Shown: in pieces, positions 2,148-37,617 of the stretch | Position numbering within the stretch: position 1 is the stretch's first letter | Layout of the letters: each line of letters opens with the position of its first letter | Origin: Geobacter sp. DSM 9736 | Lineage (GTDB): Bacteria > Desulfobacterota > Desulfuromonadia > Geobacterales > Geobacteraceae | Reading direction: 5' to 3' | NCBI RefSeq assembly: GCF_900187405.1 | Contig: NZ_LT896716.1 | Location: forward strand, 2,484,001 to 2,548,000 | Length of the DNA: 64,000 bases | Made by a program: the position numbers and the translations under genes | The notes under the pieces: model-generated | What the model saw: the letters and a program-made list of their open reading frames with translations, nothing else | Told to the model about the DNA's origin: nothing | Database searches by the model: none

Positions 2148-2580
2148 GCAGATGGACTTTTGGCGAAGCCGCTTGAACCAGCGACGGCACAGCAAAAAGC
2201 TCCAAATGCAAGGCGCCGACGCCCCCCCAAATGAGGCGTAGCAGCGCTACGCCGCAATGCAGGGGGTAAGGAGGCAACGCAGCAGATGGACTTTTGGCGA
2301 AGCCGTACCGAACCAGCGACGGCACAGCAAAAAGCTCCATATGCAAGGCGCCGACGCCCCCCAAATGAGGCGTAGCAGCGCTAAGCCGCAGTGCAGGGGG
2401 TAAGGAGGCAACGCAGCAGATGGACTTTTGGCGAAGCCGTCTTACTTGAACCAGCGACGGCACAGCAAAAAGCTCCGTACGCAAGGCGCCGACGCCCCCC
2501 AAATGAGGCGTAGCAGCGCTAAGCCGCAGTGCAGGGGGTAAGGAGGCAACGCAGCAGATGGACTTTTGGCGAAGCCGTCT
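2148..2580. repeat. Tandem array of three ~129-bp palindromic elements (family D)
   Basis: Three near-identical units at about 2178-2306, 2312-2440 and 2450-2578 are separated by 5-9 bp and preceded by a degenerate half unit (2148-2172). Each unit is an imperfect palindrome. The outer arms resemble each other in inverted orientation (GACGGCACAGCAAAAAGCTCC versus TGGACTTTTGGCGAAGCCG), with inner runs of C and G. The central dyad is GGCGTAGCAGCGCTACGCC at 2235, 2369 and 2507; the last two have one altered base. The array lies between the 5' region of the livK-like gene and the xerC stop codon, which it almost touches. No coding potential is evident. Confidence 0.9.
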
Positions 2581-2582
2581 TA

Positions 2583-3458
2583 CTACTTGCGGGGGTGGGC
2601 CTTGTCGTACACCTCCATAAGCCTGTCAATGGAGACGTGCGTGTACTTCTGCGTGGTGGAAAGGGAGGCATGCCCCAGGAGTTCCTGGATTGCCCGCAGG
2701 TCCGCTCCCGCCTCCAGCATGTGGGTGGCGAACGTATGCCGCAGCGTATGGGGCGAAACCTTCTTCATGGTGGCGAGCCGGAGGATGTGCTTGTCGATGC
2801 TCCGGGCGACGCTGCGCCGGGTAAGGCGCCCCCCTTTCAGGTTAACGATGAGAGGAGCGTCGCCGGGAGGGTTCCCCCGTTCAGCAAGGTATGCCGCGAG
2901 GGCAGCTCGTGCGTGGCGGCCCACCGGCACGATCCGCTCCTTGTTCCCCTTGCCGAGGACCCGCCCGATTCCACTGTCGATGTCGATGCTCTCCACATTC
3001 ATCCCGGTTAGTTCGGAGACACGTATACCGCAGGAGTAGAGGAGCTCGAACATCGCCCGGTCCCGCAGAGTGGCCGGATCTGAGCCCCGGGGAGCCTCCA
3101 CCAGCGCCGTCACTTCGTCTATGGAGAGGTGAAAGGGCACCTTCTTCTCCTTTTTCGGCGTGGAAACCAGCTCCGCCGGGTTTCGCGCCACAACCCCCTC
3201 CCGAAGGAGAAATTTGAAGAACGCCCTTATTGCCGCGATCTTCCTGCCGATGGAGCTCTTCCGGTGGTCCTTGTGCAGGAGAGCCATGAACCTCCGGATA
3301 AGGAGATGATCCACCTCCCCCGGAGAAATACTTCCCCTTTCACGGCTCACGAAGTCGAGGAATTGCAGGAGATCGACACGGTAGGCGGCGGTCGTGTGAG
3401 GAGACACGTTACGGACAATGGCGAGGTGGCGGCAGAACCGCTCTATCTCTTCTTTCAT
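2583..3458 (-). CDS. xerC: Tyrosine recombinase XerC
   Basis: This 291-aa site-specific recombinase belongs to the XerC/XerD type, which resolves chromosome dimers at dif in the cytoplasm. The N-terminal SAM-like DNA-binding domain (about 1-100) is followed by the catalytic domain. The full active-site set is visible: R146 (GIRVSEL), K170 (LGKGNKER), H237-xx-R240 (SPHTLRHTF), H263 ([11 protein letters not shown]) and Y272. The start at 3458 follows a GGGAG site; the upstream extension to 3641 reads through the adjacent divergent gene region and is not supported. Length matches the family. XerC is chosen over XerD by general resemblance only. The repeat array begins 2-3 nt after its stop codon. 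Confidence 0.88.
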
Positions 3459-3584
3459 CGCTGCTCCCGCTCTGCATTTCAATGGGCGGATTCTAGAGGC
3501 AACAGCGCGCCGAGTCAAGGGTGACTCCCTGCGGCTGAAAAGCAGGCTTTGACATCGGCCTGCCCTGCTTCTATAGTTGTCGCC

Positions 3585-4736
3585 ATGAGCAAGGTCGTTC
3601 TTGAAAGGGTCGCCGAATACGACCCGAATCTTGTCGCACAAGGGGTGGAGCGGGTACTGGCGCCGCTGGGGGGAATCGAGAAGTTCGTGCTCCCCGGCGA
3701 GCGGGTGCTGCTAAAGCCGAACCTTCTGGCCGCAAAATCTCCCGAAGCTGCTGTCACAACCCACCCAGAGGTGGTCCGCGCGGTAGTGAAGCTGGTGCAG
3801 CGGGCTGGGGGGATCCCCATTATCGGCGACTCCCCCGGCTATGGGTCATATTCCCGTATAACCGAGAAAACGGGACTTTCGGCGGTAGCCCGAGAGACCG
3901 GCGCCCAGCTGGTAGAATTTTCCGACTCGGTCGAGGTCCAGGGGAGCGGCACCTTCCGCCGGTTCGAAATCGCCCGCCCCTACCTGGAGGCTGACCGCAT
4001 CATCAACCTGCCGAAACTGAAGACTCACGAGATGATGACAATTACCTGCGCGGTCAAGAACCTTTTCGGTGCGGTTGTCGGGGCGCGAAAGGCCGCCTGG
4101 CACCTCAAGGCGGGATCGGACCGGGAACTCTTTGCGAGGATGCTGGTAGAACTGAGCCTGCTGAGGGTTCCTGACCTGACGATCGTGGATGCGGTTATCG
4201 GCATGGAAGGAAACGGTCCGGGCAGCGGGGATCCCAGACACGTAGGCGTTCTGCTGGCTGGGACCGACCCGGTGGCGGTGGATGTCGTTGCCGCGGAGCT
4301 TGCCGGGATTCCCCGAAAGCTCCTCTACGTCGAACGGGCCGCAAGGGAGCTCGGCCTCCCCGGCAGCGACCGGTCGAACATCGAACTTGCGGGGTCTCCT
4401 CTGGAGGAACTGCGCGGAGCTCCCTTCAGGCTTCCCCACATTTCAGACGTCCAGTTCGGCCTCCCCCGGTTTCTCAAGAACCGCCTCCGCCACTACTTCA
4501 CCTCCCGCCCCTGCGCCACTGAAAGGTGCCGGATGTGCGGCATATGCATCGAGGCATGTCCTCCACGAGCGATCTCCATCGAGGAGGGAAAGCTGAAATT
4601 CGACTACCAGCGATGCATCCACTGCTTCTGCTGCCGTGAGCTCTGCCCCGACGCCGCCCTGGCCGTCAAACAGGGACTGGTGCTGCGGCTGGCGGCGAAA
4701 ATCGCCTTAATTAAAACTAATTTCAACCGCGGTTGA
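3585..4736 (+). CDS. DUF362 protein with C-terminal 2x[4Fe-4S] ferredoxin domain
   Basis: This 383-aa protein starts [17 protein letters not shown], the usual beginning of DUF362 proteins. The DUF362 domain occupies about residues 1-300. Two C-terminal clusters of ferredoxin cysteines follow ([12 protein letters not shown] and [12 protein letters not shown]), each able to bind a [4Fe-4S] cluster. No signal peptide is visible, so it is probably cytoplasmic. Family function is unknown; electron transfer is inferred from the clusters. The ATG at 3585 lacks a clear Shine-Dalgarno sequence; a TTG at 3549 would add 12 residues that fit the family less well. It is divergent from xerC. Its stop codon overlaps the -35 box of the next transcript. 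Confidence 0.85.
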
Positions 4737-4761
4737 CTTTTATCCGGGCTGACACTACTAT
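4733..4761 (+). promoter_or_regulatory. Strong sigma-70 type promoter of the orphan transcript
   Basis: TTGACT (4733-4738), a 17-bp spacer and TACTAT (4756-4761). The -35 box overlaps the stop codon of the DUF362 gene. The predicted start is near 4768. Confidence 0.7.
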
Positions 4762-4825
4762 TTAACTATCCTCCAGTGAATGAGCGAGGGAAGGGAATCT
4801 ACAGCGAAAGGAGACCTGAGAGCTT

Positions 4826-4900
4826 ATGTGGACCACAATCTATATGCTTCGCCCGGTAACCCGCTGCAAAGAAGGTTGCCCTAGATGGCCCGCCGCCTGA
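4826..4900 (+). CDS. Possible 24-aa peptide inside the small RNA
   Basis: An ATG with AAGGAG about 12-15 nt upstream opens a 24-codon frame, MWTTIYMLRPVTRCKEGC then PRWPAA and a TGA. The last codons lie in the stem just before the terminator, an arrangement seen in leader peptides. The spacing from the ribosome site is long and there is no amino-acid-biosynthesis gene downstream. It could be a chance frame in a non-coding RNA; treat as a hypothesis. Confidence 0.22.
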   Translation: MWTTIYMLRPVTRCKEGCPRWPAA

Positions 4901-4921
4901 TCGTGGCGGGCGCCCGAAAGA

Positions 4922-4947
4922 GAGCCCCCTGCAAAGGGGGCTTTTTA
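4922..4947 (+). terminator. Rho-independent terminator of the small RNA
   Basis: AGCCCCC / GGGGGCT stem with a TGCAAA loop, followed by TTTTT. Confidence 0.85.
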
Positions 4948-4998
4948 GTATCCCTGTATCCCCATGCTCCGTTTAACCGGAAGAACTGCAATTACTCC

Positions 4999-5049
4999 TT
5001 GACAAAGAACCCACCTTGGCGAAGAATCGTCACCTGAACAGTCGTTCAG
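4999..5049 (+). promoter_or_regulatory. macA promoter with 16-bp palindromic operator
   Basis: TTGACA (4999-5004), a 17-bp spacer and AAGAAT (5022-5027). The start region then carries a perfect dyad CTGAAC-AGTC-GTTCAG at 5034-5049. A palindrome of this size over the transcription start is typical of TetR-type repressors of efflux genes. The TetR encoded at 35273 has a different dyad at its own promoter, so the cognate regulator is probably outside the window. Confidence 0.6.
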
Positions 5050-5073
5050 CTAAACTTCTCAGTCAGGATCCCC

Positions 5074-6330
5074 ATGAAAAAGTACATCATTCCGGGCCTG
5101 CTTCTTGCGGCCGGCATTGCCCTCACCGCCTATTTCACCATCGACAGGAAGCCCGAGGTCACCTACAGGACCGCAAAGATCGAGCGTGGCGACGTCGTCT
5201 CCGCCGTGGCCGCCACCGGAAGTCTCGCAGCAGTCGTGACGGTCCAGGTGGGAACGCAGGTCTCCGGCACAATCCAGAAACTCTTCGTCGATTTCAATTC
5301 GCCGGTAAAGAAGGGGCAGGTGATCGCCCAGATAGATCCCTCCCTCTTTTCGGCGCAGGTGGAACAGAGCAGGGGAAACCACCTGAGCGCGCAGGCGAAC
5401 CTCCAGAAGGCGAAGGCAGACCTAAATGACGCAAAACGCAGCCTGGAACGCAACCGTCAGCTTCTGAAAGAAGGGATCGTCTCCCAGGGGGACTTCGATA
5501 CCGCCGAAAACCGCTACGCCATGGCGGCTGCCGCCGCTAAAGCCGCAGAAGCTAGCGTGGCACAGACCCGCGGCTCCCTCACCCAGGCCGAAACCAACCT
5601 CCGTTACTCGACCATCCGCTCCCCCGTAAACGGGACCGTCGTCTCCCGCAACATAGACATCGGGCAGACGGTGGCGGCATCGTTCCAGACACCTACCCTC
5701 TTCACCATCGCGCAGGATCTCACGAAGATGCAGATCGACACCAGTGTGGACGAGGCCGATATAAGCAAGGTAAAGGTGGGGCAGACGGTTTCCTTCACCG
5801 TTGACGCCTACCCGGAGGTCCGCTTCGCGGGCACCGTGCGCCAGGTTAGAAATGCCCCCATAGTAGCCCAGAATGTAGTTACTTACGTGGTGGTCATAGA
5901 TGTCGATAACCGGGAGATGAAGCTCAAGCCGGGAATGACGGCCAACGTAAGCATCGAGACATCGCGCAGGGACAATGTGCTCAAGCTGCCGGCGGCAGCC
6001 CTCCGGTTCAAGCCGAAGACGAAGGATGACAAGGTGATGAAGTCGGGGGGGGAAGCGAAAGGTCGCCCGGGCGGAGCACCCGCCGAAAAAGGGAAACACA
6101 GGACAGCCCCGGACGAGCAGCAGGTATGGGTCCTGGATGCGGAGCAGAAGCCACGGCCGGTAAAGGTACGTACCGGCATATCCGGAGACGGTAACGTGGA
6201 GTTGATGGAAGGGAGCCTCAAGGAAGGAGATGCGGTGATCGTCGAACAGATAAGCCCGCAGAAGAAGCCGTCGGGCGGCATGGGCGGCGGCATGGGTGGC
6301 GGACGTTCCCCCATGGGAATGAGAATGTAG
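5074..6330 (+). CDS. macA: MacA-like periplasmic adaptor of tripartite efflux pump
   Basis: This 418-aa membrane-fusion protein starts with an N-terminal membrane anchor (MKKYIIPGLLLAAGIALTAYF). Then come a barrel/lipoyl region (VGTQVSGTIQKLFVDFNSPVKKGQVIAQID), an alpha-helical hairpin rich in Ala/Gln (about 90-170), and the second lipoyl half (YSTIRSPVNGTVVSRNID). It would link the inner-membrane MacB ABC transporter to a TolC-type channel. The tail is unusually glycine/methionine rich (GGMGGGMGGG). The macB genes follow, interrupted only by a palindromic repeat. The ribosome site is weak. No outer-membrane channel is adjacent; the channel gene at 40769 belongs to another pump. Confidence 0.87.
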   Translation: MKKYIIPGLLLAAGIALTAYFTIDRKPEVTYRTAKIERGDVVSAVAATGSLAAVVTVQVGTQVSGTIQKLFVDFNSPVKKGQVIAQIDPSLFSAQVEQSRGNHLSAQANLQKAKADLNDAKRSLERNRQLLKEGIVSQGDFDTAENRYAMAAAAAKAAEASVAQTRGSLTQAETNLRYSTIRSPVNGTVVSRNIDIGQTVAASFQTPTLFTIAQDLTKMQIDTSVDEADISKVKVGQTVSFTVDAYPEVRFAGTVRQVRNAPIVAQNVVTYVVVIDVDNREMKLKPGMTANVSIETSRRDNVLKLPAAALRFKPKTKDDKVMKSGGEAKGRPGGAPAEKGKHRTAPDEQQVWVLDAEQKPRPVKVRTGISGDGNVELMEGSLKEGDAVIVEQISPQKKPSGGMGGGMGGGRSPMGMRM

Positions 6331-6369
6331 AGGTTGAGGTCCAGCTAAACAAAGCGTTTTGAATATTCA

Positions 6370-6490
6370 GGGTTGTTCAAAAACAGCCAGATCGTCGCAC
6401 CCGCAGAAAGCCCCACGGAGGCATAGCAGGGCTATGCCGCACACGGCGGCTTTCGAGGACGGCGGCGAGATGGCTGTTTTTCAACAACCC
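6370..6490 (+). repeat. Family A palindromic element, copy 1
   Basis: About 120 bp with ~19-bp near-perfect terminal inverted repeats (GGTTGTTCAAAAACAGCCA and its complement with one change). An inner inverted pair GAAAGCC/GGCTTTC and a central dyad GGCATAGCAGGGCTATGCC follow; here both core arms carry compensating changes, so pairing is kept. It lies between macA and the macB ATPase gene, inside what should be one operon. Confidence 0.9.
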
Positions 6491-6503
6491 CCAGAAAGAT
6501 AAG

Positions 6504-7235
6504 ATGGACGAAGTGGTTCGTGTAAATAACGTCACCAAGGTCTACACCATGGGGGACCAGCGGGTCGAGGCGCTCAAGGGGGTATCCTTCAGCGTGCGCC
6601 GTGGAGACTTCGTCGCCATAATGGGAGCGTCAGGGAGCGGAAAATCGACCTGCATGAACATGCTCGGCTGTCTCGACGTGCCCACGGGAGGGGAATACCT
6701 GCTGGACGGGGTGGACGTAGGGAAGCTTTCCTCCAACGAACTTGCCGAGATCAGGAACAGGAAGCTCGGATTCGTCTTTCAGGGTTTCAATCTCCTCCCC
6801 AGAACCACCGCTCGGGAAAACGTCGAGCTCCCGCTGGTCTATGCACGCGTCCCTGCGGCTGCCAGACATGAAAAAGCACTGGCAGCTCTTGAGCGTGTAG
6901 GGCTTGCCGGCAGATCGGGCCACTTCTCCAACCAGCTCTCGGGGGGGCAGCAGCAGCGGGTGGCGATCGCCAGGGCTCTTGTGAATGACCCTTCCATCCT
7001 TCTTGCCGATGAACCAACGGGAAACCTGGATTCGAGGACATCCGTCGAAATTATGGGAATCTTCCAGGAGTTGAACCGCCAGGGAATCACCATCATCATG
7101 GTCACCCATGAACCGGACATCGCTGCATTCACCGGCCGTCACCTGATATTCCGCGACGGGCACATCCTCTCCGACACAGTCAATCCAGCCCCCAGGGATG
7201 CAAAATCGGCACTCGCCGAGGAGGCTCGTGCATGA
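6504..7235 (+). CDS. MacB-type ABC transporter ATPase subunit
   Basis: This 243-aa ATPase belongs to the MacB/LolD type. Walker A GASGSGKST is at 41-49, Q-loop Gln at 93, signature LSGGQ at 145-149, Walker B ILLADE at 165-170 followed by PTGNLDS, and the switch His in MVTHEPD. It energises the permease encoded next, whose start overlaps its end by 4 nt (ATGA), implying coupled translation. In E. coli MacB these two parts are one polypeptide; here they are split. The ribosome site (AGAAAGATA) is poor and lies directly after the repeat. Confidence 0.9.
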   Translation: MDEVVRVNNVTKVYTMGDQRVEALKGVSFSVRRGDFVAIMGASGSGKSTCMNMLGCLDVPTGGEYLLDGVDVGKLSSNELAEIRNRKLGFVFQGFNLLPRTTARENVELPLVYARVPAAARHEKALAALERVGLAGRSGHFSNQLSGGQQQRVAIARALVNDPSILLADEPTGNLDSRTSVEIMGIFQELNRQGITIIMVTHEPDIAAFTGRHLIFRDGHILSDTVNPAPRDAKSALAEEARA

Positions 7236-8603: not shown

Positions 8604-8725
8604 AGGTTGTTCAAAAACAGTCAGATCGTCGCACCCGCAGAAAACTCTCGCGGAGGCGTAGCAGCGCTACGCCGCACAAGGGAGCTTTCGAGGACGGCGG
8701 CGAGATGGCTGTTTTTCAACAACCT
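8604..8725 (+). repeat. Family A palindromic element, copy 2
   Basis: Same ends as copy 1 (AGGTTGTTCAAAAACAG ... CTGTTTTTCAACAACCT) and the core GGCGTAGCAGCGCTACGCC. It is followed 7 bp later by a family B element. Confidence 0.9.
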
Positions 8726-8732
8726 TATCAGC

Positions 8733-8852
8733 GGCGCCAGATTCGCGATGATTCCGTCGTCGGCGACGATCGACGGCCCGCAGGCGTAGCAGCGCCACGT
8801 CGAGGAGCCGGAGGAGGAACCGGCGGCGGAAGGGCGCGAATATGGCGTCGCG
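8733..8852 (+). repeat. Family B palindromic element, copy 1
   Basis: About 120 bp. The ends are imperfect inverted repeats (GGCGCCAGATTCGCG and, complemented, GACGCCATATTCGCG). The core GGCGTAGCAGCGCCACGTC resembles that of family A. The GACGCCATATTCG end lies 3 nt after the TGA of the reverse-strand phospholipase D gene. Confidence 0.9.
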
Positions 8853-10040
8853 TCACAAAAACCAGCTTGCCGGGGCGCTCAGCCGCTCCATCAACCGCAC
8901 CAACACGCCCCGCTGCTCATGTTCCACCAGATCGATCCGGTGTGAGCGGCGGATGTCCTCCTCTATGGCCCTCTCCACCTGCATCCCGAATTCATGGCTG
9001 TCCACCACCACGTTGAGTTCATAATTCCGATGGAAGCTGCGCAGGTCAAGATTTGCCGACCCTATTACGGTCCAGCAACCGTCTATGACCATGACCTTGG
9101 CGTGCAGAATGGTGCCCTGCCGCTCGTAGACCTCCACCCCCGCGCGTAGAAGCGGCCCATAGTAGCTGCGGCTCACGAGCCTTACAAGAGGAACGTCGCT
9201 TTTTTCCGGTAGCACCAGCTGGACGCGGACTCCCCGCCGCGCAGCGCGCAGCAGCGAGCGGAGGAAACGGGGCCCCGGCACGAAATAGGGGGTGAGCACC
9301 TTCACCGTCTCGGAAGCGCCCGCAACGGCCATCATGAAGGCGCTCCGGATGAAGGAGCGGTTGTGGTGGGGACTTCCAGTCACGACCATCAGAGAGGCGT
9401 CACCCGCCTCCCGGTCGGCAAGCGCTGTTTCCTCAGGGATGAACGTATCTCCCCTCTCCTCGACCCATGTCTCAAGGAAGAGCTGCTGCAGGAACGAGAC
9501 CGCGGGCCCTTCTATCCTGACACCCAGGTCGCGCCACTGCTCGCCGGTTTCCTCACCTGCTGCATATTCATCGCCGATGTTGATCCCGCCGAGAAAAGCA
9601 ACGGCGCCATCCACCAGCACCATTTTACGATGGTCCCGCCGGTCGAACCACGCAAGACCCCCGCGAAAGGGGGGAGGGTTGAAGGGGATGCAGCGTACAC
9701 CTCCTTTTTCGAGGTGCCTGAAATAGTAACCGGGAGTATCGAAGCAGCCGACATAGTCGTATAGAAGCCGGACGGAGACACCCCGGGCCGCCGCCGCCAG
9801 AAGGGCCTGAGCGAAGGCAGCGCCGGTACGGTCGCTCCGTATGATATAGAACTCGATGAGAATTTGGTGGCGGGCCTGGGCGAAGGATTCGATCATCGCC
9901 CGAAAGAGTTCGCCGCCGGTATCGAAGAGCCTGACCCGGTTCTGAGGAGAGCAGGCAGCCTCGGTGTTCCTCCTGAACCAGCGGAAGAACCGTGGCGTGC
10001 GAAATATGCGGAATTGCCGCTTGCGCCGCAGCCGGGACAT
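8853..10040 (-). CDS. Phospholipase D / cardiolipin synthase family protein (ClsB-like)
   Basis: This 395-aa protein has two HKD catalytic motifs: H137-K139-D144 (DHRKMVLVDG) and H313-K315-D320 (LHAKVMVIDG...GSANLD). Cardiolipin synthases of this type join phosphatidyl groups at the inner membrane. There are no N-terminal membrane helices as in ClsA, and the length is near ClsB, so the ClsB subtype is the better guess. The N-terminus is very basic (MSRLRRKRQFRIFRTPRFFR), suiting peripheral binding to acidic membranes. The start at 10040 has GGGAGGAG upstream; a longer frame reads into the NifU gene and is rejected. The stop codon abuts a family B repeat. Confidence 0.87.
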   Translation of the reverse strand: MSRLRRKRQFRIFRTPRFFRWFRRNTEAACSPQNRVRLFDTGGELFRAMIESFAQARHQILIEFYIIRSDRTGAAFAQALLAAAARGVSVRLLYDYVGCFDTPGYYFRHLEKGGVRCIPFNPPPFRGGLAWFDRRDHRKMVLVDGAVAFLGGINIGDEYAAGEETGEQWRDLGVRIEGPAVSFLQQLFLETWVEERGDTFIPEETALADREAGDASLMVVTGSPHHNRSFIRSAFMMAVAGASETVKVLTPYFVPGPRFLRSLLRAARRGVRVQLVLPEKSDVPLVRLVSRSYYGPLLRAGVEVYERQGTILHAKVMVIDGCWTVIGSANLDLRSFHRNYELNVVVDSHEFGMQVERAIEEDIRRSHRIDLVEHEQRGVLVRLMERLSAPASWFL

Positions 10041-10103
10041 TACACTCCTCCCAGTGGGTGATTCGACAAACGGAGCTACTGCGCGATGCGCCCCGGATAC
10101 GGA

Positions 10104-10136
10104 AAGGGGCGCGTAACACGGAATTGCGCGCCCCTT
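10104..10136. terminator. Strong hairpin between the NifU-like and phospholipase genes
   Basis: 10-bp perfect stem (AAGGGGCGCG / CGCGCCCCTT) with a 12-nt loop. It lies downstream of the reverse-strand NifU-like gene. On that strand it is followed by only a short T stretch, so termination may be partial. Confidence 0.55.
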
Positions 10137-10168
10137 AGTCCCGATATAAAAGCTAGGGGGATAAGGCT

Positions 10169-10393
10169 CTATTGAACCTGTACGACTTCCTTCACTCCCG
10201 GAACCTTGTCCTTGAGAGTCTTCTCGATCCCCATCTTGAGGGTCATCGTGGACATGGGGCAGTGGCCGCATGCGCCTACAAGCTTCACCTTGACCACTCC
10301 GTCCGGCGAAACGTCAACGAGCTCAACGTCCCCACCGTCGTTCTGCAGGGCAGGACGAATCAGCTCCAGAACTTTCTTTACGTCTTCAACCAT
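10169..10393 (-). CDS. NifU C-terminal domain (Nfu-type) Fe-S scaffold protein
   Basis: This 74-aa protein consists only of the NifU C-terminal domain: [18 protein letters not shown] followed by the cluster-binding motif C42-G-H-C45 ([14 protein letters not shown]). Such proteins carry and deliver [4Fe-4S] clusters to apo-proteins in the cytoplasm. The chosen start (10393) has AGGAGG at good spacing; a longer frame adds 11 unlikely residues. It lies 60 bp downstream of the aspartase gene on the same strand and may be co-transcribed with it. Confidence 0.92.
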
Positions 10394-11854: not shown

Positions 11855-11871
11855 GCCGAATCCTCTAATGC

Positions 11872-11988
11872 GGTTGTTGAAAAACAACCATCTCGCCGCC
11901 GTCCTCGAAAGCCGCCGTGTGCGGCGTAGCGCAGCTACGCCTTGTGGCTTTCTGCGGGTGCGACGATCTGTCTGTTTTTGAACAACCT
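11872..11988 (-). repeat. Family A palindromic element, copy 3 (inverted)
   Basis: Ends GGTTGTTGAAAAACA ... TGTTTTTGAACAACC, core GCGGCGTAGCGCAGCTACGCC. It sits between the aspA start codon and a family B element. Confidence 0.9.
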
Positions 11989-12010
11989 GGGTTTCAACAA
12001 CAGGCTACAA

Positions 12011-12131
12011 GCGACGTCAGATTCGCGATGATTCCGTCGTCGGCGACGACAGACGGCCCGCAGGCGTAGCAGCGCTACGTCGAGGAGCCTAAGGAGGAGC
12101 CGGCGGCGGAAGGGAGCGAATATGGCGTCGC
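12011..12131 (+). repeat. Family B palindromic element, copy 2
   Basis: Very similar to the copy at 8733: the same ATTCGCGATGATTCCGTCGT segment near the left end and GCGAATATGGCGTC at the right end. The core is GGCGTAGCAGCGCTACGTC. Its right end lies about 5 nt from the TAG of the reverse-strand rubrerythrin-like gene, in the same relative orientation as the other B copies. Confidence 0.9.
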
Positions 12132-12134
12132 CCC

Positions 12135-20632: not shown

Positions 20633-21556
20633 ATGGGAAAACGTCCCTTCTCCCTCGCCCGAAGCATCGGCAACACCCCCCTCGTCGAACTCAACACCAT
20701 CAATCCGAACCCGCGGGTCAGGATTCTTGCCAAACTCGAGGGTAACAACCCCGGAGGGTCGGTGAAAGACCGTCCGGCGCTCTACATGCTCACCAGAGCT
20801 GAAGAGAGCGGCGATCTCACCCGCGAAAAGGTAATTCTGGAACCGACTTCCGGCAACACCGGCATCGCCCTCGCGATGCTAGGTGCCTCCCGCGGCTACT
20901 GGGTGAAGCTCGTCATGCCCGCCTGCGTCAGCATGGAGCGACGAAGCGTCCTGGAAGCCTTCGGCGCAGAACTGGTTCTCTCCCCTTCCGAGGAGGCTAC
21001 TGACGGGGCGATCCGCCTCGCCCACCGTATCCTCCAGGAAAATCCGGATAAATATTACATGCCCAACCAGTACGCAAATCCGAACAATGTCCTTGCCCAC
21101 TACGAGACGACCGGACCGGAAATCATGCGTCAGACCGGAGGAGACATCGACGTCTTCGTGGCGGGGATGGGGACGAGCGGAACGCTCATGGGGACGAGCC
21201 GCTTCTTCAAGGAGAAGAAGCCGGGGGTGAAGATAGTAGGGATAGAACCCCGCCTCGGTCACAAGGTGCAGGGATTGAAGAACATGCAGGAGGCGATAGT
21301 TCCGGAGATCTACCGGGAGGAATCGCTGGACGAGAAGCTCACGGTGGAGGACGAAATAGCATTTTCGACCGCGCGGGAACTGGCGATCCGGGAAGGCCTT
21401 TTTGTCGGCATGTCCAGCGGCGCCGCCGTAGCCGGCGCTCTCCAGATAGCGAAGGAAATGTCGAGCGGCACCATAGTCGTCATTCTTCCCGACAGGGGGG
21501 ACCGGTATCTGAGCACGACGTTGTTTCGCTCAGTCTGCGCCTGCTGCCCGCCTTGA
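20633..21556 (+). CDS. cysM: Cysteine synthase, CysM type (PLP-dependent)
   Basis: This 307-aa fold-type II PLP enzyme makes cysteine from O-acetylserine and sulfide or thiosulfate. The PLP lysine lies in NNPGGSVKDRPALYM (about residue 45), the substrate loop in EPTSGNTGIALA, and the phosphate loop in GTSGT. The short C-terminus and the KDRPA motif resemble CysM rather than CysK, but subtype is provisional. The last residues CACCPP are unusual, with three cysteines. A family B repeat begins 2-5 nt after its stop codon. It is divergent from the PEBP gene. Confidence 0.88.
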   Translation: MGKRPFSLARSIGNTPLVELNTINPNPRVRILAKLEGNNPGGSVKDRPALYMLTRAEESGDLTREKVILEPTSGNTGIALAMLGASRGYWVKLVMPACVSMERRSVLEAFGAELVLSPSEEATDGAIRLAHRILQENPDKYYMPNQYANPNNVLAHYETTGPEIMRQTGGDIDVFVAGMGTSGTLMGTSRFFKEKKPGVKIVGIEPRLGHKVQGLKNMQEAIVPEIYREESLDEKLTVEDEIAFSTARELAIREGLFVGMSSGAAVAGALQIAKEMSSGTIVVILPDRGDRYLSTTLFRSVCACCPP

Positions 21557-21558
21557 GA

Positions 21559-21680
21559 GGCGACGCCATATTCGCGCCCTTCCGCCGCCGGTTCCTCCTC
21601 CTGCTCCTCGACGTAGCGCTGCTACGCCTGCGGGCCATCGGTCGTCGCCGACGACGGAATCATCGCGAATCTGGCGTCCC
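21559..21680 (-). repeat. Family B palindromic element, copy 3 (inverted)
   Basis: GACGCCATATTCGCGCCC begins 5 nt after the cysM TGA, and the element ends with ATTCGCGAATCTGGCG-type sequence. Core CGACGTAGCGCTGCTACGCC. Because cysM is on the plus strand, the orientation relative to its gene equals that of the other two B copies. Confidence 0.9.
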
Positions 21681-21765: not shown

Positions 21766-21886
21766 AGGTCGCTCAAAAACAGTCAGATCGTCGCACCCGC
21801 AGAAAGTCCCGCGGAGGCGTAGCTGCGCTACGCCGCACAAGGCGGCTTTCGAGGAGGGCGGCTAGATGGCTGGTTTTCAGCGACCT
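21766..21886 (+). repeat. Family A palindromic element, copy 4
   Basis: Ends AGGTCGCTCAAAAACAG and CTGGTTTTCAGCGACCT: the changed bases (GTCGCT / AGCGAC) are compensatory, so pairing is kept. Core GGCGTAGCTGCGCTACGCC. It lies 4 nt after the ychF stop codon. Confidence 0.9.
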
Positions 21887-21890
21887 CCTT

Positions 21891-27053: not shown

Positions 27054-27054
27054 C

Positions 27055-27194
27055 AGGCAGCAGAGAAACTACTGCGGGGGCAATCTGCTACGTTGCCACT
27101 CGCTACGGAAGCTCAACGTAGCGCTGCTACGCCTCGCCCCCTCGCTCGTTTGCGCCTTGCATATTGCCCTCCTCGCTACGTTTCTCAGCAGCCT
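27055..27194. repeat. Family C palindromic element
   Basis: About 140 bp. The arms AGGCAGCAGAGAAAC and, at the far end, GTTTCTCAGCAGCCT are inverted; the inner arms GGGGGCAAT / ATTGCCCTC also pair. The core ACGTAGCGCTGCTACGCC resembles families A, B and D. It begins 1 nt after the MerA-like gene stop. 27195-27340 contains no gene that I recognise. Confidence 0.8.
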
Positions 27195-27340
27195 GTCCGT
27201 ATTGCTCAAGAACTCAAACAAACCCTCCTTCGCCAATCGTGTGGCTGGGGCCGCATCGGAAAGACTGCTTCGGGATTCGCACCGAAAATCAATGCAACTG
27301 GATGAAGCATTTGCGGACGCAGCTCCCTCATTTCGCGGAT

Positions 27341-31384: not shown

Positions 31385-31418
31385 AAAAAAACGGCGGGGA
31401 GAAACCTCCGCCGCCGTC
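31385..31418 (-). terminator. Rho-independent terminator of the NlpC/P60 gene
   Basis: A GC-rich stem (ACGGCGG-type arms) has an A-run on the plus strand, giving a T-run on the minus strand downstream of the gene ending at 31450. Confidence 0.75.
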
Positions 31419-31449
31419 CATAATACTTACTTCTTCCCGTGTTCCGCCG

Positions 31450-32349
31450 TCACTGCCCTTCGTGCCAGCGCCGTATTACGAATCCCTTCGTCCCCTTCCC
31501 TCCGCCGGTCGGCCACGCATCGAGGGCTTCCCGTTTGGGCCGAAGCCCCTCCAGAACGTTTCGGAGCGGTCGCACCCGCACACCACCCCCCTCCCCTGAA
31601 CAGTCGAGGTAGCTTTCGATCACACGGTTACGGTCGAGGATGATGAGGACATGTCCGTCCCATACGATGAGATCGAGAGGTTTGACCGCCCGCATGATCT
31701 CCTCGTCGCTGCGTCCCGCGATGGGGACGCCGCTTCCGAAGTGCAGAAGCGCACTCGTATTGCGGGGAGTATACCCATCGGTCGCTTCATAGAGAAGGCC
31801 TGAACAGTCAACGCCTCTAAGTTCCCACCTGGCGGTCGTTTCCGGGGCTGTCGGCTTTTTCGGGGAATACAGCTCCCTAAGCTCCGGAATTCCGGACCGT
31901 ATATTCCCGCCCCAGACGTAGATGCTTCCCTGCGCCTGCAGGAGCCGGTCGATCACCTCCCGGCGAGGCGGCAGGTTGCGTTGCCGTTGCTGCGGCTTTT
32001 CGGAAGTGAGGTTCACGAGACGCCCATCGATGAAATACCCGGTTCTGGAGGGGTATGGGTAGTCTTCGGTAGTGACCCGGTATACCGGCACAGGAGCATC
32101 TGCAACCGAGCCTTCGATCCGGAAAACCGTCCCGGGGAGAGCTACGAACTCAAGCTGACGGATCTGGCCGCAACGGTCAGTTTCCAGCGTGGCGCCGTCA
32201 CTTCCGCCGAAGATACGCGGGAAATCCGGTATATTGAACATCGGTGTCGGCAACCGGGCAACAGCGTAGGAGGCAGGGGCGCCTGCCGCGTGGCGGGGAG
32301 GAAGCGCAGAAGCCGCAAGGGCGAGAATGGCTACTATGAAAAAACGCAT
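31450..32349 (-). CDS. Exported NlpC/P60-type cell wall hydrolase
   Basis: This 299-aa protein has a signal peptide (MRFFIVAILALAASALPPRHAAGA) and a middle SH3-like region. The C-terminal NlpC/P60 peptidase domain has the catalytic Cys in GVDCSGLLYEATDG (about 180) and His in DGHVLIIL (about 232). These enzymes cut peptide stems of peptidoglycan in the periplasm. AGGAGG precedes 32349. It follows the DUF3147 gene by 17 bp on the same strand. Confidence 0.85.
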   Translation of the reverse strand: MRFFIVAILALAASALPPRHAAGAPASYAVARLPTPMFNIPDFPRIFGGSDGATLETDRCGQIRQLEFVALPGTVFRIEGSVADAPVPVYRVTTEDYPYPSRTGYFIDGRLVNLTSEKPQQRQRNLPPRREVIDRLLQAQGSIYVWGGNIRSGIPELRELYSPKKPTAPETTARWELRGVDCSGLLYEATDGYTPRNTSALLHFGSGVPIAGRSDEEIMRAVKPLDLIVWDGHVLIILDRNRVIESYLDCSGEGGGVRVRPLRNVLEGLRPKREALDAWPTGGGKGTKGFVIRRWHEGQ

Positions 32350-32366
32350 AAAACCTCCTGCAGCTG

Positions 32367-32699
32367 CTACCTGAGCAGCCACTGATGTAGCGACGCCGCA
32401 GCCAGCCATACTGCAGCGCCGGTACCGATGGCGACTCCCAGGGGCATCGACCTGCGAAAGCAGAAAAGTACAACGGCGAAGAACAGTATGGTCGGGATGA
32501 TCCCCCAGAGGACTCCACGGGTGTAGTCGGTCAGGAGGCGCCCGTCTCCCGGGTTATCCGAAGCCAGCCACACAAGGACGATGAGGGAAGTAAGGGGCAT
32601 GGTGGCGATGAGTCCGCCGAGGGTAGGAAATTTCCTGCCGATCTGGGTGCAGACGATGATGATCATATTGGTGATGAGGAGCTTCACGAGAAACGGCAT
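32367..32699 (-). CDS. DUF3147 small integral membrane protein
   Basis: This 110-aa inner-membrane protein has four predicted helices (LLITNMIIIVCTQIG; TMPLTSLIVLVWLAS; LWGIIPTILFFAVVLF; VAIGTGAAVWLAAASL). The pattern GLIATMPLTSLIVL after an N-terminal helix is typical of DUF3147. Function unknown. The ribosome site is weak. It probably shares a transcript with the NlpC/P60 gene. Confidence 0.75.
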   Translation of the reverse strand: MPFLVKLLITNMIIIVCTQIGRKFPTLGGLIATMPLTSLIVLVWLASDNPGDGRLLTDYTRGVLWGIIPTILFFAVVLFCFRRSMPLGVAIGTGAAVWLAAASLHQWLLR

Positions 32700-32741
32700 G
32701 ACGTTATCCGTACCGGAAGGCGAGGCGCGGACTCCGGGTCC

Positions 32742-32843
32742 TTAAGAACCTGTTGAAAAAGTCAGGTTGTTCAGGCCGGCGAAGGCTCCGGCCGCCATGG
32801 CCTCCTGAATCTTCCGCTCCGCAATGGTCGCCAGGATGTCCAT
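32742..32843 (-). pseudogene. Truncated DUF1992 (DnaJ-related) gene
   Basis: The frame starts at 32843 with MDILATIAERKIQEAM, the characteristic beginning of DUF1992 proteins. After about 24 residues (AAGAFAGL) it runs into AACAACCTGACTTTTTCAACAGG, which resembles joined ends of a family A repeat, and stops after 33 codons. Normal DUF1992 proteins are around 100 residues or more. Its ATG shares a base with the DUF116 stop (TGATG), so the remnant is still translationally coupled. The loss of the rest was probably caused by insertion and deletion at the repeat. Confidence 0.65.
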
Positions 32844-33613
32844 CAGGCAAGAACCGTCCTTAGCGCTTCGTCGATCTTGGCCACATCGACCTTTGTGTTG
32901 ATGCAGGGGCCGAAGGGGCGGTTGTTGAGGATGCCGATCACCGGAAGGGGGTAACAGTCCTTGATCCCCGAGGTGAGATCCCGTTCGCAGGCAACGGCCA
33001 CTACGAGCTTCGGCCGCTTCTCGATAATGACCTTGCGGGCGAGCGTGCCCCCGGTCGCGACGCTGATGTCGATGTTGTACCTCTGCGCCAGTTCGGCGAG
33101 CCCCTTGATGTCGCACCGGCCGCACCGCACGCATTTATTGATGTCTCCGGTGACCTTTATTTCGCAGTCGAAGAGCTGCAGGCAGTGGGGAAGGAGGATA
33201 AGGACCCGGTCGGGGCGCACCTGAAGGCGCTGGGAGGCGACGAGGCTGTTGTTCATCGCAATGAAGGACTGGCGGATGGTGTCCTTGGAAATGCCGATCA
33301 GCTTCCCCATCAACTCGATCACCGGCAGGAGAAACTTTATGACCACTCCACGCATGAACCTGGTGAAGAGGATATCCTTGCTTAGCGCGGTGGTAAGGAC
33401 GAGGAGCAGTGTTCCGAAGAGAGCGATGCTTGAGAGTACGGCAAAGATAAGTCCTGCGATCCGCGGAAGCTCCGGGTGTATGTTCGCAAGCCCTTTGGTC
33501 GGAATCCACCAGAGGAGATAGATCGCGCCGACGATCAGCAGGCATGTCACACCCATGAGGGCGACGAAAAGGCGCTTGCGGGGCGGTACGTTCGGTTGCG
33601 CCTGATCAGACAC
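32843..33613 (-). CDS. DUF116 membrane protein with cysteine-rich domain
   Basis: This 256-aa protein has two N-terminal membrane helices (LFVALMGVTCLLIVGAIYLLWW; IAGLIFAVLSSIALFGTLLLVL). The DUF116 domain follows with cysteines in LPHCLQLFDCEI, KCVRCGRCDI, VACERDL, DCYP and GPCINTKVD, suggesting Fe-S or metal binding. DUF116 is often found beside fmt/def in this group; function unestablished. The start at 33613 overlaps the fmt end by 8 nt. Confidence 0.85.
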   Translation of the reverse strand: MSDQAQPNVPPRKRLFVALMGVTCLLIVGAIYLLWWIPTKGLANIHPELPRIAGLIFAVLSSIALFGTLLLVLTTALSKDILFTRFMRGVVIKFLLPVIELMGKLIGISKDTIRQSFIAMNNSLVASQRLQVRPDRVLILLPHCLQLFDCEIKVTGDINKCVRCGRCDIKGLAELAQRYNIDISVATGGTLARKVIIEKRPKLVVAVACERDLTSGIKDCYPLPVIGILNNRPFGPCINTKVDVAKIDEALRTVLA

Positions 33614-34556
33614 TCGGTGCGTCCTTGCCTAGGATCGCTCCGGCCGCCACCCGGTACCCGGCCAGGAATTCCTGCGCCGGCAGACGCTTCTTCCCCTCCA
33701 GTTGCAGCTCGTCAATGATGACGCTGCCGCCGCCGCACGCGACCTCAAGCCCGTTCCTGCCGGCGGCCAGAACTGTTCCTGGAACTCCGCTTCCTTCACC
33801 GGTCCTGACCCGGTAGATTTTGAGCATCTTCCCGTCCAGCTCGCTGTAAGCGCCCGGCCAGGGATTCATCCCCCTCACCTGGTTCTTTATGGCCGCAGGC
33901 TCGCGGCTCCAGTCGATGAGGCCGTGTTCCTTCTTGAGGAGCGGCGCGTAATTGGTCAGTGAATCGTCCTGCTTTTCAGGGATGAGCTTTCCGGCAACGA
34001 GAAGATCGAGTGTCTCCGCCAGGGCAGCGGCCCCGATACGTGACAGCCTGTCGTGGAGAGCCTGGGCATCCTCGTCCGGATCGATGGGAGTCGTCTTCTT
34101 GAGGAGCATGTCGCCGGTATCGAGCCCCACATCCATGAGCATGGTGGTGACCCCTGTTTCCGTCTCGCCGTTGATGATGCACCAGTTGAGGGGAGCCGCC
34201 CCGCGGTATCGCGGGAGAAGCGAGGCATGGACATTGATGCAGCCGTGCCGCGGTATGTCGAGAAGCGCCTTGGGCAGGATCTGGCCGAATGCGACGACCA
34301 CGATCAGGTCAGGAGCCAGCTCCCGGATCTGCTCGATGTTTTCCGGAGTCCGCACCTTTAGGGGCTGCAGGACCGGTATCCCGTGCTGCTGCGCAAGCAC
34401 CTTCACGGGTGGCGGCATCATCTGCTGGCCGCGACCTTTAGGCCGGTCGGGCTGAGTGACGACAGCCACAACCTGCTCCCCCCGCTCCATAAGCCGCTGG
34501 AGAGTGGGACAGGCAAACTCGGGTGTACCCATGAAGACAATGCGCAGACCGGTCAT
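33606..34556 (-). CDS. fmt: Methionyl-tRNA formyltransferase
   Basis: This 316-aa protein transfers a formyl group from 10-formyl-THF to Met-tRNAi in the cytoplasm. The N-terminal domain has IVFMGTPEFACPTLQRL, the active-site motif HASLLPRYRGAAPLNWCIINGE and the catalytic Asp in MDVGLDTGDML. The C-terminal OB-like domain starts at about residue 205. The ATG at 34556 shares a base with the def stop (TGATG). Length is normal. Confidence 0.97.
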   Translation of the reverse strand: MTGLRIVFMGTPEFACPTLQRLMERGEQVVAVVTQPDRPKGRGQQMMPPPVKVLAQQHGIPVLQPLKVRTPENIEQIRELAPDLIVVVAFGQILPKALLDIPRHGCINVHASLLPRYRGAAPLNWCIINGETETGVTTMLMDVGLDTGDMLLKKTTPIDPDEDAQALHDRLSRIGAAALAETLDLLVAGKLIPEKQDDSLTNYAPLLKKEHGLIDWSREPAAIKNQVRGMNPWPGAYSELDGKMLKIYRVRTGEGSGVPGTVLAAGRNGLEVACGGGSVIIDELQLEGKKRLPAQEFLAGYRVAAGAILGKDAPSV

Positions 34557-35068
34557 CAATCTCTCTCCTGTTCCTCGGCGAGCCGCCGGTATTTTTTCCT
34601 GAACATCTCACGCTTGAGGGGGGAGATATGATCGACGAAGAGAATGCCGTCGAGATGATCGATCTCGTGCTGGAAGGCAATGGCAAGAAGGCCTTCAGCA
34701 CGGTACGTCACCTCTTCCCCCTGAAGATTGAGGGCTTTCACTACGACACGGGCATGGCGGTGGACATTCGCTGAGTACTTGGGGATGGAAAGGCATCCCT
34801 CCTCTTCGTACGATTCCCCGTCGGCATGGATGATCACCGGGTTGATGGCGACGATCAGCTCCGGCTGGTCTTCCTTTGTGGATACATCGATGACGACTAT
34901 GCGCTGATGCACGCCTATCTGAGGCGCCGCCAGACCGACACCGGGTGCGGCATACATCGTCTCCGCCATATCCTTCACCAGCTCGGCGGTTTTCTCGGTG
35001 ATGACGGTAACGGGGAGCGCCTTCTTTTTCAACTCGGGATTTGGGTACGTAAGTATGTTTCTGACCAT
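34556..35068 (-). CDS. def: Peptide deformylase
   Basis: This 170-aa metalloenzyme removes the N-formyl group from nascent proteins. All three motifs are intact: GVGLAAPQIG (43-52), EGCLSIP with metal Cys92, and QHEIDHLDG with His134, Glu135 and His138. AGAGGAA precedes 35068. It is the first gene of a tightly overlapping def-fmt-DUF116 operon; the upstream minus-strand region contains TATAGT-like boxes. Confidence 0.97.
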   Translation of the reverse strand: MVRNILTYPNPELKKKALPVTVITEKTAELVKDMAETMYAAPGVGLAAPQIGVHQRIVVIDVSTKEDQPELIVAINPVIIHADGESYEEEGCLSIPKYSANVHRHARVVVKALNLQGEEVTYRAEGLLAIAFQHEIDHLDGILFVDHISPLKREMFRKKYRRLAEEQERD

Positions 35069-35207
35069 GAGATTCCTCTATCGACAATCGTTGTACTATA
35101 TATAACCTGCCGTTCAAAATGCAATTCTTAGTTGCAGCACGATAGTATACCATCCCTGGGCGAAAAGTTCTCCCTACCATTCAAGGTCGCCTGCGGAGAA
35201 TTTCGAG

Positions 35208-35250
35208 TTGACTTTCCTCGATCCCGGGCTTATATACCTACCGGTAAGTA
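35208..35250 (+). promoter_or_regulatory. tetR promoter with operator over the -10 box
   Basis: TTGACT (35208-35213), a 17-bp spacer and TATATA (35231-35236). A 16-bp dyad TACCTACC/GGTAAGTA (35235-35250, one mismatch) starts within the -10 box. Binding there would block transcription, so autoregulation by the encoded TetR is likely. Confidence 0.7.
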
Positions 35251-35272
35251 CAGCAGCCGAAACAGGGGAAGC

Positions 35273-35878
35273 ATGCCTGAGACTACAGCAAACACCTATC
35301 CGGCCCGGGAGCGGCTCCTCGCAGCCTCCCTCGACCTTTTCACCGCGAAGGGGTACGCCGGCACCTCGGTAAGAGAGATCGTCGCAGCAGCGGGAGTGAC
35401 AAAGCCGGTACTCTACTACTACTTCGGCAGCAAGGAGGGCATCTACCTTGAGCTGATGCAGGACACCTACAGTATCTTCCTGCAGATCGTCTCCGAGCTC
35501 TCGGCTGCTCCCGGAAGTGCCCGCGAGCGGATCATCCGCTTCGCCACCGGCATTTTCGACGCCTTCGTGGAAAGGATCCAGGTGGTCCGGCTCATCTACT
35601 CCATATTCTACGGCCCACCCCAGGGCACTCCGCCCTTTCCCCATGAGAAGTACTACGACACGATGCTTGAAACAGTAGCAGGTTTTATACGGAAAGGAGT
35701 CGAAGCAGGCGAGCTTAAAACCGTCAGCATCCACTCCGCCACATGGGCAGTCATATCCTGCATGAATACGGTTATGGAAGAACAGCTCTGCCAGACGCCG
35801 CCGAGAATCGACCGGCAGGGGCTGATTGACGTGCTTGGGCTGATCCTGGACGGGCTCTCCGATGGAGGACGAAGATGA
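35273..35878 (+). CDS. TetR/AcrR family repressor of the RND efflux operon
   Basis: This 201-aa regulator has an HTH at about 14-60 (LLAASLDLFTAKGYAGTSVREIVAAAGVTKPVLYYYFGSKEGIYLEL) and a ligand-binding helical domain after it. It probably represses itself and the downstream pump, with relief by a pump substrate. The start at 35273 follows AGGGGAA; a longer frame from 35132 would translate the promoter. It overlaps the adaptor gene by 4 nt (ATGA). Confidence 0.9.
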   Translation: MPETTANTYPARERLLAASLDLFTAKGYAGTSVREIVAAAGVTKPVLYYYFGSKEGIYLELMQDTYSIFLQIVSELSAAPGSARERIIRFATGIFDAFVERIQVVRLIYSIFYGPPQGTPPFPHEKYYDTMLETVAGFIRKGVEAGELKTVSIHSATWAVISCMNTVMEEQLCQTPPRIDRQGLIDVLGLILDGLSDGGRR

Positions 35879-37020
35879 AAAAACTGGTTTTGGTGATATT
35901 CATTGCCACTGCTGCCGCGGCCGCATCAGGCTGCTCGAAGGGGGAGGCCCGCCCGGACCAGGTCCGGAAGCCCTCGATTGCCGTGGAAGTAGCGGCGGCG
36001 CACCCGGCAGAAGTAGTCGAAGGCATCGATGTAACCGGAAGCCTGGAGCCGAAATTCTGGGCCGACGTGAAGACACAGATTCCGGGACTGGTGAAACAGG
36101 TTTACGTTCACGAATGGGTGCGTGTCAGCAAGGGGACGATGCTGGCGCGGATCGATGTGGCGGAGACAGAGGCCCTGGTAAAGCGGGCCGAAGCCTCGGT
36201 CGAATCGGCACGGGCGGGACTGGCTCAGGCCAGGGTCACCGCGACCAGAGCTGACCGCGAGTTTGCTCGTGCCGTTAAGCTTAAGGACGCGGGGCTCGCT
36301 ACCCAGCAGAGTGTCGACGATGCACGGACAGAAGCAGAAGCCGCTGCCGCCCGGATCGACGCATCAAAAGCACAGATACGCGTGGCGGAAGAAGAGGTGC
36401 GGCAAGCACGGGCCCGGCAGGCAAAAGGATTGGTGGTGGCGCCTATCGATGGCGTGGTGGCCCTTCGCGACGTCAACGTCGGCGACCTCGCCAGCGACGC
36501 CGCCGCTTCGAAACCGATTTTCCGCATAATCGACAACCGGGTCCTCAATCTCACGGTAACGGTCCCCTCAGCCGAATCCGCCCGGGTGAAGATCGGGCAG
36601 CCGCTGGAATTCACCGTGGATGCCCTCCCAGGCAAGACCTTCACCGGAAAGGTGATGTTCATCAATCCGGAACTGAACGCTGCCGACCGCTCACTCAAGG
36701 TGGTGGCGGAGGTGCGGAACGTCGACGAGCTGCTCAAGGCGGGAGTATTCGCCAAGGGGCGAATCATAACGGGGCGTCGCGGCAACGCCCTCCAGGTTCC
36801 GCGCAGCGCGATGGCGGGGTGGGACAGCGTATCGGGGAAAGGTCGGCTCTTCGTAGTTTCGGGAGAGACCGCTCGGGCGCGGGGGGTCGAAACGGGGACG
36901 GTCAGCGGGGATCTCGTCGAAGTGGTGAAAGGGCTCCAGGCAGGAGAGCGGTTCGTCGTCCGCGGCGGCTTCAACCTGAAGGATGGCGACCGGATCACCA
37001 TAGCCTCCCGGGGAAACTGA
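35875..37020 (+). CDS. RND efflux periplasmic adaptor lipoprotein
   Basis: This 381-aa membrane-fusion protein has a lipoprotein signal (MKKLVLVIFIATAAAAASGC) and lipoyl halves (VKTQIPGLVKQVYVHEWVRVSKGTML and LVVAPIDGVVALRDVNVGD). An Ala/Arg-rich coiled coil lies between them (about 95-180), followed by beta-barrel and membrane-proximal domains. It anchors to the inner membrane and links the RND pump to the TolC-type channel encoded downstream. It starts inside the tetR stop. An SMR gene and two repeats lie between it and its pump gene. Confidence 0.9.
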   Translation: MKKLVLVIFIATAAAAASGCSKGEARPDQVRKPSIAVEVAAAHPAEVVEGIDVTGSLEPKFWADVKTQIPGLVKQVYVHEWVRVSKGTMLARIDVAETEALVKRAEASVESARAGLAQARVTATRADREFARAVKLKDAGLATQQSVDDARTEAEAAAARIDASKAQIRVAEEEVRQARARQAKGLVVAPIDGVVALRDVNVGDLASDAAASKPIFRIIDNRVLNLTVTVPSAESARVKIGQPLEFTVDALPGKTFTGKVMFINPELNAADRSLKVVAEVRNVDELLKAGVFAKGRIITGRRGNALQVPRSAMAGWDSVSGKGRLFVVSGETARARGVETGTVSGDLVEVVKGLQAGERFVVRGGFNLKDGDRITIASRGN

Positions 37021-37021
37021 C

Positions 37022-37333
37022 ATGGCCTGGGTTCACCTTGTCATCGCAGGCATCTTCGAGATCGGCTGGGCTTTCGCCCTCAAGTTCAGTGAGGGATTCA
37101 GCCGTCTCTGGCCCTCCGTTGCCACCGTCGCCTGCATGGGCCTAAGCATGGTCTTCGTCTCCCAGGCGCTTAAGACGATCCCGATAGGCACCACCTACGC
37201 CGTCTGGACCGGAATCGGGGCCGCGGGTACAGCCCTTGTCGGGATGCTCGTCTTCGGCGAGCCGGCTACTGCCGCACGGCTACTCAGCATCGGGCTCATC
37301 ATCGCCGGGATAGCCGGACTCAAGCTGTTTTGA
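37022..37333 (+). CDS. SMR family exporter (SugE/Gdx-like)
   Basis: This 103-aa protein has four membrane helices and the essential Glu in the first (MAWVHLVIAGIFEIGWAFALKFSEGFSRLWPS). The WAFALK and GF-x-R-x-WPS sequence is like SugE/Gdx, which export guanidinium and some quaternary ammonium ions by proton exchange, rather than EmrE. It works as a dimer in the inner membrane. It starts 1 nt after the adaptor stop, inside the RND operon. I see no guanidine riboswitch upstream. Confidence 0.85.
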   Translation: MAWVHLVIAGIFEIGWAFALKFSEGFSRLWPSVATVACMGLSMVFVSQALKTIPIGTTYAVWTGIGAAGTALVGMLVFGEPATAARLLSIGLIIAGIAGLKLF

Positions 37334-37371
37334 AACGGGTAAGCGAAGCAGATACAAAACAGCACGAACCA

Positions 37372-37489
37372 AGGTTGCTCAAAAACAGTCAGATCGTCGC
37401 ACCCGCACAAAGCCCCGAGGCATAAACAGCGCTACGCCGCACGAGAGGGGTTTCGAGGACGGCGGCGAGATGGCTGTTTTTCAATGACC
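37372..37489 (+). repeat. Family A palindromic element, copy 5
   Basis: Ends AGGTTGCTCAAAAACAG and CTGTTTTTCAATGACC. The core is damaged (AGGCATAAACAGCGCTACGCC), so this is the most degenerate A copy. It lies in tandem with copy 6. Confidence 0.85.
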
Positions 37490-37494
37490 AAAAC

Positions 37495-37617
37495 AGGTTG
37501 CTCAAAAACAGCCAGATCGTCGCACCCGCAGAAAGCCCACGCGGAGGCGTAGCATCGCTACGCCGCACAAGGGCGGCTTTCAAGGACGGCGGCGAGATGG
37601 CTGTTTTTCAGCAACCT
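37495..37617 (+). repeat. Family A palindromic element, copy 6
   Basis: Ends AGGTTGCTCAAAAACAGCC and GGCTGTTTTTCAGCAACCT are fully complementary; the core is GGCGTAGCATCGCTACGCC. It ends 15 bp before the RND pump start codon, whose ribosome site AGGAGAG lies just outside. Confidence 0.9.

Follow-up and report, generated by a model that had tools for sequence, protein, structure and literature searches.

The long palindromes in the 64,000 nucleotides analyzed here (the window, G000:C1:2484001-2548000, from the single 3,957,683-bp contig of Geobacter sp. DSM 9736) belong to a multicopy superfamily whose members share a core, have covarying arms, are present or absent at the same site in different relatives, follow a placement rule at gene ends, nest within one another, and exchange modules. 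These elements are probably non-autonomous, MITE-like mobile hairpins, a new variant of the YPAL/ERIC kind with hairpin- or gene-end-directed insertion. The family itself was noted in 2009; the docking rule, the modular build, and the turnover are new here.

The window contains 13 real copies, six of type A, three of type B, one of type C, and three tandem copies of type D, at or near the places listed in an earlier note on this DNA, and all 13 are nested imperfect palindromes around variants of GGCGTAGCAGCGCTACGCC, as the note had described. With the right end defined as the 3' end on the sense strand, the three D-type copies occupy 2176..2312, 2310..2446 (core at 2369), and 2448..2584, all on the plus strand, with a truncated right-arm remnant beside the first (around 2148-2170). 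The right end of the third meets the stop of a tyrosine recombinase gene that runs on the opposite strand (2583-3641, minus strand). This recombinase is Xer-like. The A-type copy at 6370..6492 (+) is followed 11 bp past its right end by the ATG (6504) of a same-strand ABC-transporter ATPase gene. A convergent intergenic region holds an A-B pair, the A-type copy at 8604..8727 (+) and the B-type copy at 8731..8852 (+), the latter contacted at its right end by the stop of an opposite-strand phospholipase-D-like gene (8853-10271, minus strand). An aspartase/fumarase-family gene starts (ATG 11854) 17 bp past the right end of the same-strand A-type copy at 11871..11991 (-), and an opposite-strand stop (12135) lies 3 bp from the right end of the B-type copy at 12010..12131 (+). 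A PLP-enzyme gene on the opposite strand has its stop (21556) at the right end of the third B-type copy (21555..21677, -), and the A-type copy with compensated GGTCGCTC/CAGCGACC ends (21766..21888, +) reaches to 2 bp from the opposite-strand ychF stop (21891). For the single C-type copy (27054..27195, -), an opposite-strand gene stop (27053) immediately adjoins the right end. The last two copies form a tandem A-type pair at 37371..37492 (+), in which the core loop is rearranged to GGCATAAACAGCGCTACGCC, and 37494..37617 (+), with the ATG (37633) of a same-strand AcrB-family transporter gene 15 bp past the right end. Leaving out inner tandem members, all nine terminal copies in the window abut a gene end or start.

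The earlier note had divided these copies into four families. The copies and their common core are real, but the types are subfamilies of one superfamily, singletons included. Allowing up to two mismatches, the 19-bp core matched 97 places in the genome, and a reversed control matched none. About 100 copies, taken from stretches around these places, were compared, and a covariance model was built on 36 diverse ones. When used for the search of the genome and its relatives that the note had proposed, this model gave at least 136 matches in G000. Type A is represented by dozens of similar copies in this genome and type B by about 25; many others are singletons, with outer arms of their own sequence that are each self-complementary. 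The model also matched 26 of the family's 48 genomes and 185 of 277 genomes of the class, in 64 of 82 genera (Geobacter, Geotalea, Oryzomonas, and Pelotalea among the named ones), and none of the 19 genomes of the genus g6. We did not use 23 matches in the bin 'Nitrospirae GWC2_56_14' as a sign of presence in another phylum, since they are crowded on a few contigs and contamination of the bin is likely; these matches, at L195, L217, L229, and L260, are on probable contaminant contigs. At about 120 to 145 bp, with no protein, a stable hairpin, and many copies, the elements are MITE-like in the manner of YPAL and ERIC. An Rfam scan of the window gave no match at or above the curated cut-off, and that of the nif stretch described below gave subthreshold matches only; one was a weak match to P11 at L029:6161-6284 (-), with an E value of 3.3e-4 and 32.5 bits against a cut-off of 70.

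No published name was known to the earlier note, and we likewise found none, but the core and the family had been printed in 2009. Aklujkar (PMC2700814, Additional File 4) listed them for Geobacter metallireducens as '24 predicted short RNA elements', with further members in G. sulfurreducens, G. uraniireducens, and Desulfotalea psychrophila. The central palindrome given in that listing, GRCGTAGCGCTGCTACGCC, is the reverse complement of the core described here, and the elements of both sets are intergenic, so that those of G000 belong to the 2009 family. In its main-text passages on the listing, that paper has no mention of mobility, mechanism, subfamilies, a docking rule, nesting, or turnover. 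A second paper cited alongside this family (PMC2996986) concerns bemidjiensis.

The A-type consensus is predicted to fold into one long hairpin of -70 kcal/mol, consisting of an outer stem, a stem flanking AGAT/AGAT, an inner stem, and a core hairpin bordered on its two sides by GCGGA and GCAC(A/C). The facing AGAT/AGAT pair forms a tandem G-A mismatch, exact in 44 of 64 copies and present as AGGT/AGAT in 9 more (53/64). The core contains GTAG and CTAC, the former in the core stem of these units of about 120 bp, and the A arms contain CAAAAACAG...CTGTTTTTC, with a U tract that lies inside the stem and is found only in type A. The note had proposed a test for covariation and had pointed out compensatory arm changes in the copies at 21766 and 6370. 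Both changes are present (GGTCGCTC...AGCGACC at 21766 and GGCATAG...CTATGCC at 6420). In 64 copies, both sides had changed in 22 of the 28 predicted pairs, with 95.0% of cells paired in the covariation alignment, and the covariation of 0.427, compared with 0.160 after shuffling, was reached by none of 500 shuffles and by no slid control. Selection on pairing, as the note had suggested, is consistent with covariation that exceeds every shuffle, but quasi-palindrome template switching could also produce it, and the source may be either. The fold of the sense strand is predicted to be the more stable one in 86 of 98 copies. G-U pairs outnumbered A-C mismatches on this strand by 120 to 19, also in copies antisense to the abutting gene, for pairs that were themselves predicted on the sense strand; when the opposite strand is used for the prediction instead, the excess is reversed. 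Among single-copy changes, G-U and A-C were balanced (6 to 5 and 3 to 4). Because the pairs came from the sense strand and single-copy changes are without bias, we consider the evidence for the sense strand moderate and do not take the G-U excess as decisive for the strand of function.

We placed 98 copies of G000 relative to genes called with a simple codon-usage gene caller, together with 69 loci that a pattern search retrieved from other genomes. Placement is directional, with the right end facing and touching the gene end. Where the right end faced a gene on the opposite strand, the stop codon of that gene was no more than 8 bp away in 48 of 72 cases in G000 and 61 of 70 in other genomes; uniform placement in the same intergenic spaces would give about 7 and about 17 such contacts, respectively. 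Copies on the same strand as the following gene had their right end just before its Shine-Dalgarno sequence (16/24 in G000, 6 to 24 bp before the start, and 7/8 in other genomes). The left end abutted a stop in only 1 of 47 cases in G000 and 1 of 20 elsewhere, and divergent promoter regions held none of the 98 G000 copies and 1 of 78 in other genomes. In tandem arrays, the last copy abuts the gene. TAG was enriched among the abutted stops (27/50 versus 45/157; P = 0.002). At L029 (G000 1392838-1398103), nifH, nifD, and nifK are individually bracketed: a sense element lies upstream of each gene and an antisense one downstream, both with the right end toward the gene. The element cluster around nifHDK is dense, with three tandem copies upstream of nifH. 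Elements also occur near polyamine genes (carboxynorspermidine synthase-like, decarboxylase, and speA; L013) and near nifX, ferredoxin-like, and electron-transfer genes (L022).

The elements nest and carry exchangeable modules. Some 143-bp copies (L009:1600-1741, L029:1208-1351, and other 143-bp matches) carry TACCC...GGGGCATAAACAG, an extension of the core loop that represents an alternative core module, and a remnant of it is found in the copy at 37371. A 68-bp two-hairpin module (ACTTTTCACTTGTGAAAAGTGGACCGC...GGCCGAAGTC) sits at the same spot, between GCAC and ACAAGG, in four A copies (L017, L024, L054, and L058). A version of this module was also seen in copies of G006 and G007, and in L088 it is at a different place. 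B elements also occur within A elements and are then flanked by A arms on one side or on both, as at about 2,941,525-2,941,759, and superfamily elements of relatives can have a hairpin of the CCCTCACCC kind in their core. We looked among the A-arm pairs of G000 for an autonomous parent with the same arms and saw none: no pair encloses a gene, and each arm either has its partner close enough to form a hairpin or borders a nested element.

For evidence of mobility, we set some 700 kb of G008 against the corresponding part of G006 (87% identity where the two align) and some 340 kb against G007. Between these Geobacter-type genomes, there are orthologous sites that are filled in one and empty in another, as known for MITEs. 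The insertion at G008 1,180,725-1,180,846 has ATGAA at both ends, lies within an ATGA gene overlap, and corresponds to an empty site in two relatives. A second insertion has ATTTAG at both ends, and a third has no clear repeat; at some sites, the direct repeats are 5 to 6 bp long and include the stop codon. The 37 A copies of G000 showed no consistent direct-repeat offset, and we rejected a fixed target duplication in this genome for lack of a common one. The clean cases are few, and the insertion chemistry may be mixed, or old traces may have been lost. An orthologous site in G006 was available for 18 G008 elements; 3 of these sites were empty and 15 held 58 to 292 bp, and these contents mostly fold far better than shuffles (z to -8.7), about half of them with other hairpin families or modules. 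Since the G006 sites are mostly filled with folding, partly unrelated hairpins, the sites at gene ends are kept and their occupants are exchanged. Some orthologous copies are common to species, and thus not all copies have been recently mobile; the filled and empty pairs could in part be precise deletions. In the same comparisons, we observed several unrelated families of long inverted repeats (CCACAGAGGACACGGAGG, CCCTCACCCC, and ACAGGGATAATCAGGATATTCAGG types among them) inserted at stop or start codons in G008, G006, and G007, with flanks of GATTGA or of ATGAAA, mutated in one copy. At about 516,426-516,525 of G007 C1, the right arm of an element is identical to the apparent target and the left arm is the inverse of it, as though the target had served as the template for the outer stem.

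The REPIN/MITE-like origin that the note had considered stands in its MITE part, for which copies, filled and empty sites, and nesting argue, and fails in its REPIN part, given units of about 120 bp and no link to a RAYT. No RAYT gene lies in the window, as the note had said. A search for an associated RAYT, as the note had proposed, showed five Y1_Tnp genes elsewhere in the genome, none of which adjoins an element. G008, a complete genome with more than 60 elements, gave no Y1_Tnp match, and 18 of the 19 element-free g6 genomes have Y1_Tnp, several copies in most. Y1_Tnp does not track the elements, which refutes RAYT as a requirement. REP/REPIN elements moved by a RAYT (Y1 transposase) would likewise be palindromic and intergenic and could account for the GTAG/CTAC in the core of elements in a genome with five Y1_Tnp genes, but single 120-bp hairpins are not paired 20- to 40-bp REPs, and this origin is very improbable. 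We also rejected an IS1182-type transposase as the mobilizer, since PF05598 (DUF772) was found in only two of the nine genomes tested (G000 and G007) and is absent from the element-rich G008, G006, and G009.

Under the 2009 reading, the elements are cis-acting or small regulatory RNAs under selection, with the strand GGCGTAGCAGCGCTACGCC...GCACAAGG putatively transcribed and folded. The strong covariation, the more stable sense strand, the conserved G-A/G-A mismatch (AGAT opposite AGAT or AGGT), the Shine-Dalgarno sequence at the end of most same-strand copies, and the elements at nifHDK, nifX, and polyamine genes agree with such a role. We nevertheless think it unlikely, as most copies are antisense behind the stop codon of an unrelated gene, there are tandem arrays and filled/empty turnover, the neighboring genes have no common function, and the G-U excess is missing from single-copy changes. 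Selection for a hairpin after the stop codon would produce the placement rule if the elements were bidirectional terminators or mRNA 3'-end stabilizers, and their location, the other hairpin families at the same gene ends in relatives, the CAAAAACAG...CTGTTTTTC of the A arms, and the avoidance of divergent regions all fit. A consensus scan for intrinsic terminators, however, reported none of the elements, the U tract is within the stem and confined to type A, and a quarter of the copies lie just before starts. Such selection also leaves unexplained why only the right end makes contact and why new insertions are already flush with the gene, and we regard this explanation as likewise unlikely.

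The covariation might instead be a by-product of template switching or arm-to-arm conversion in quasi-palindromes, with no need for selection on pairing. The self-complementary outer arms that differ between singletons, the absence of strand bias in single-copy changes, and the G007 site at 186425, where the target recurs as the right arm and, inverted, as the left arm, point in this direction. Perfecting of palindromes would erase the AGAT/AGAT mismatch, however, and this mismatch stays unpaired in most copies; we consider such a by-product improbable. Possible, although doubtful, is an undescribed insertion system of the Desulfuromonadia, in which unrelated hairpins would be placed at CDS ends with a fixed end toward the gene and the stop codon in the duplicated target, the target being read from hairpin structure or translation signals and not from an ordinary motif.

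For the non-autonomous mobile hairpins that we favor, a putative enzyme acting in trans would copy elements into DNA at targets chosen by structure (hairpins or gene-end dyads) or by stop-codon-like sequence. Insertion would yield short direct repeats or replace a resident hairpin, and the right end would always be placed toward the gene, where the docked hairpin may serve as a transcript-end structure. YPAL is, in its features, the closest known kind, followed by ERIC. De Gregorio in 2006 reportedly described YPAL insertion close behind stop codons. We know of no strict right-end orientation or subfamily and module structure in YPAL, of no strict gene-end docking in ERIC, and of no autonomous transposon sharing termini with either. 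YPAL/RU-2 of Yersinia is a non-autonomous palindromic element of about 168 bp with filled and empty sites, variable duplications of 3 to 26 bp, and targets at or adjoining dyad symmetry (PMC2229807). ERIC/RU-1 of Enterobacteria (127 bp) resembles the elements here as a single long, intergenic, high-copy hairpin without a known mobilizer, but differs in sequence and in the TA at its termini; transcription with neighboring genes is a feature of ERIC. IS1272 of the IS1182 family targets stem-loops, inserts immediately downstream of genes, and replaces the hairpin without duplication (PMC5678879). This stem-loop replacement resembles the hairpin turnover described here, but IS1272 is an autonomous 1.9-kb IS.

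To our knowledge, the way in which ERIC, YPAL, and other small palindromic elements move has been an open question for decades. More than 100 copies in a genome, numerous sequenced relatives, clean filled and empty pairs, and a quantitative docking rule make this superfamily a large testable case, and the element-rich genomes without RAYT narrow the search for the mobilizer. Specialists may be surprised by the strict right-end docking across genomes, the individual framing of nifH, nifD, and nifK, and the turnover of hairpin for hairpin. Nitrogenase and other key Geobacter-type genes are framed by strong hairpins, and studies of their expression should account for them.
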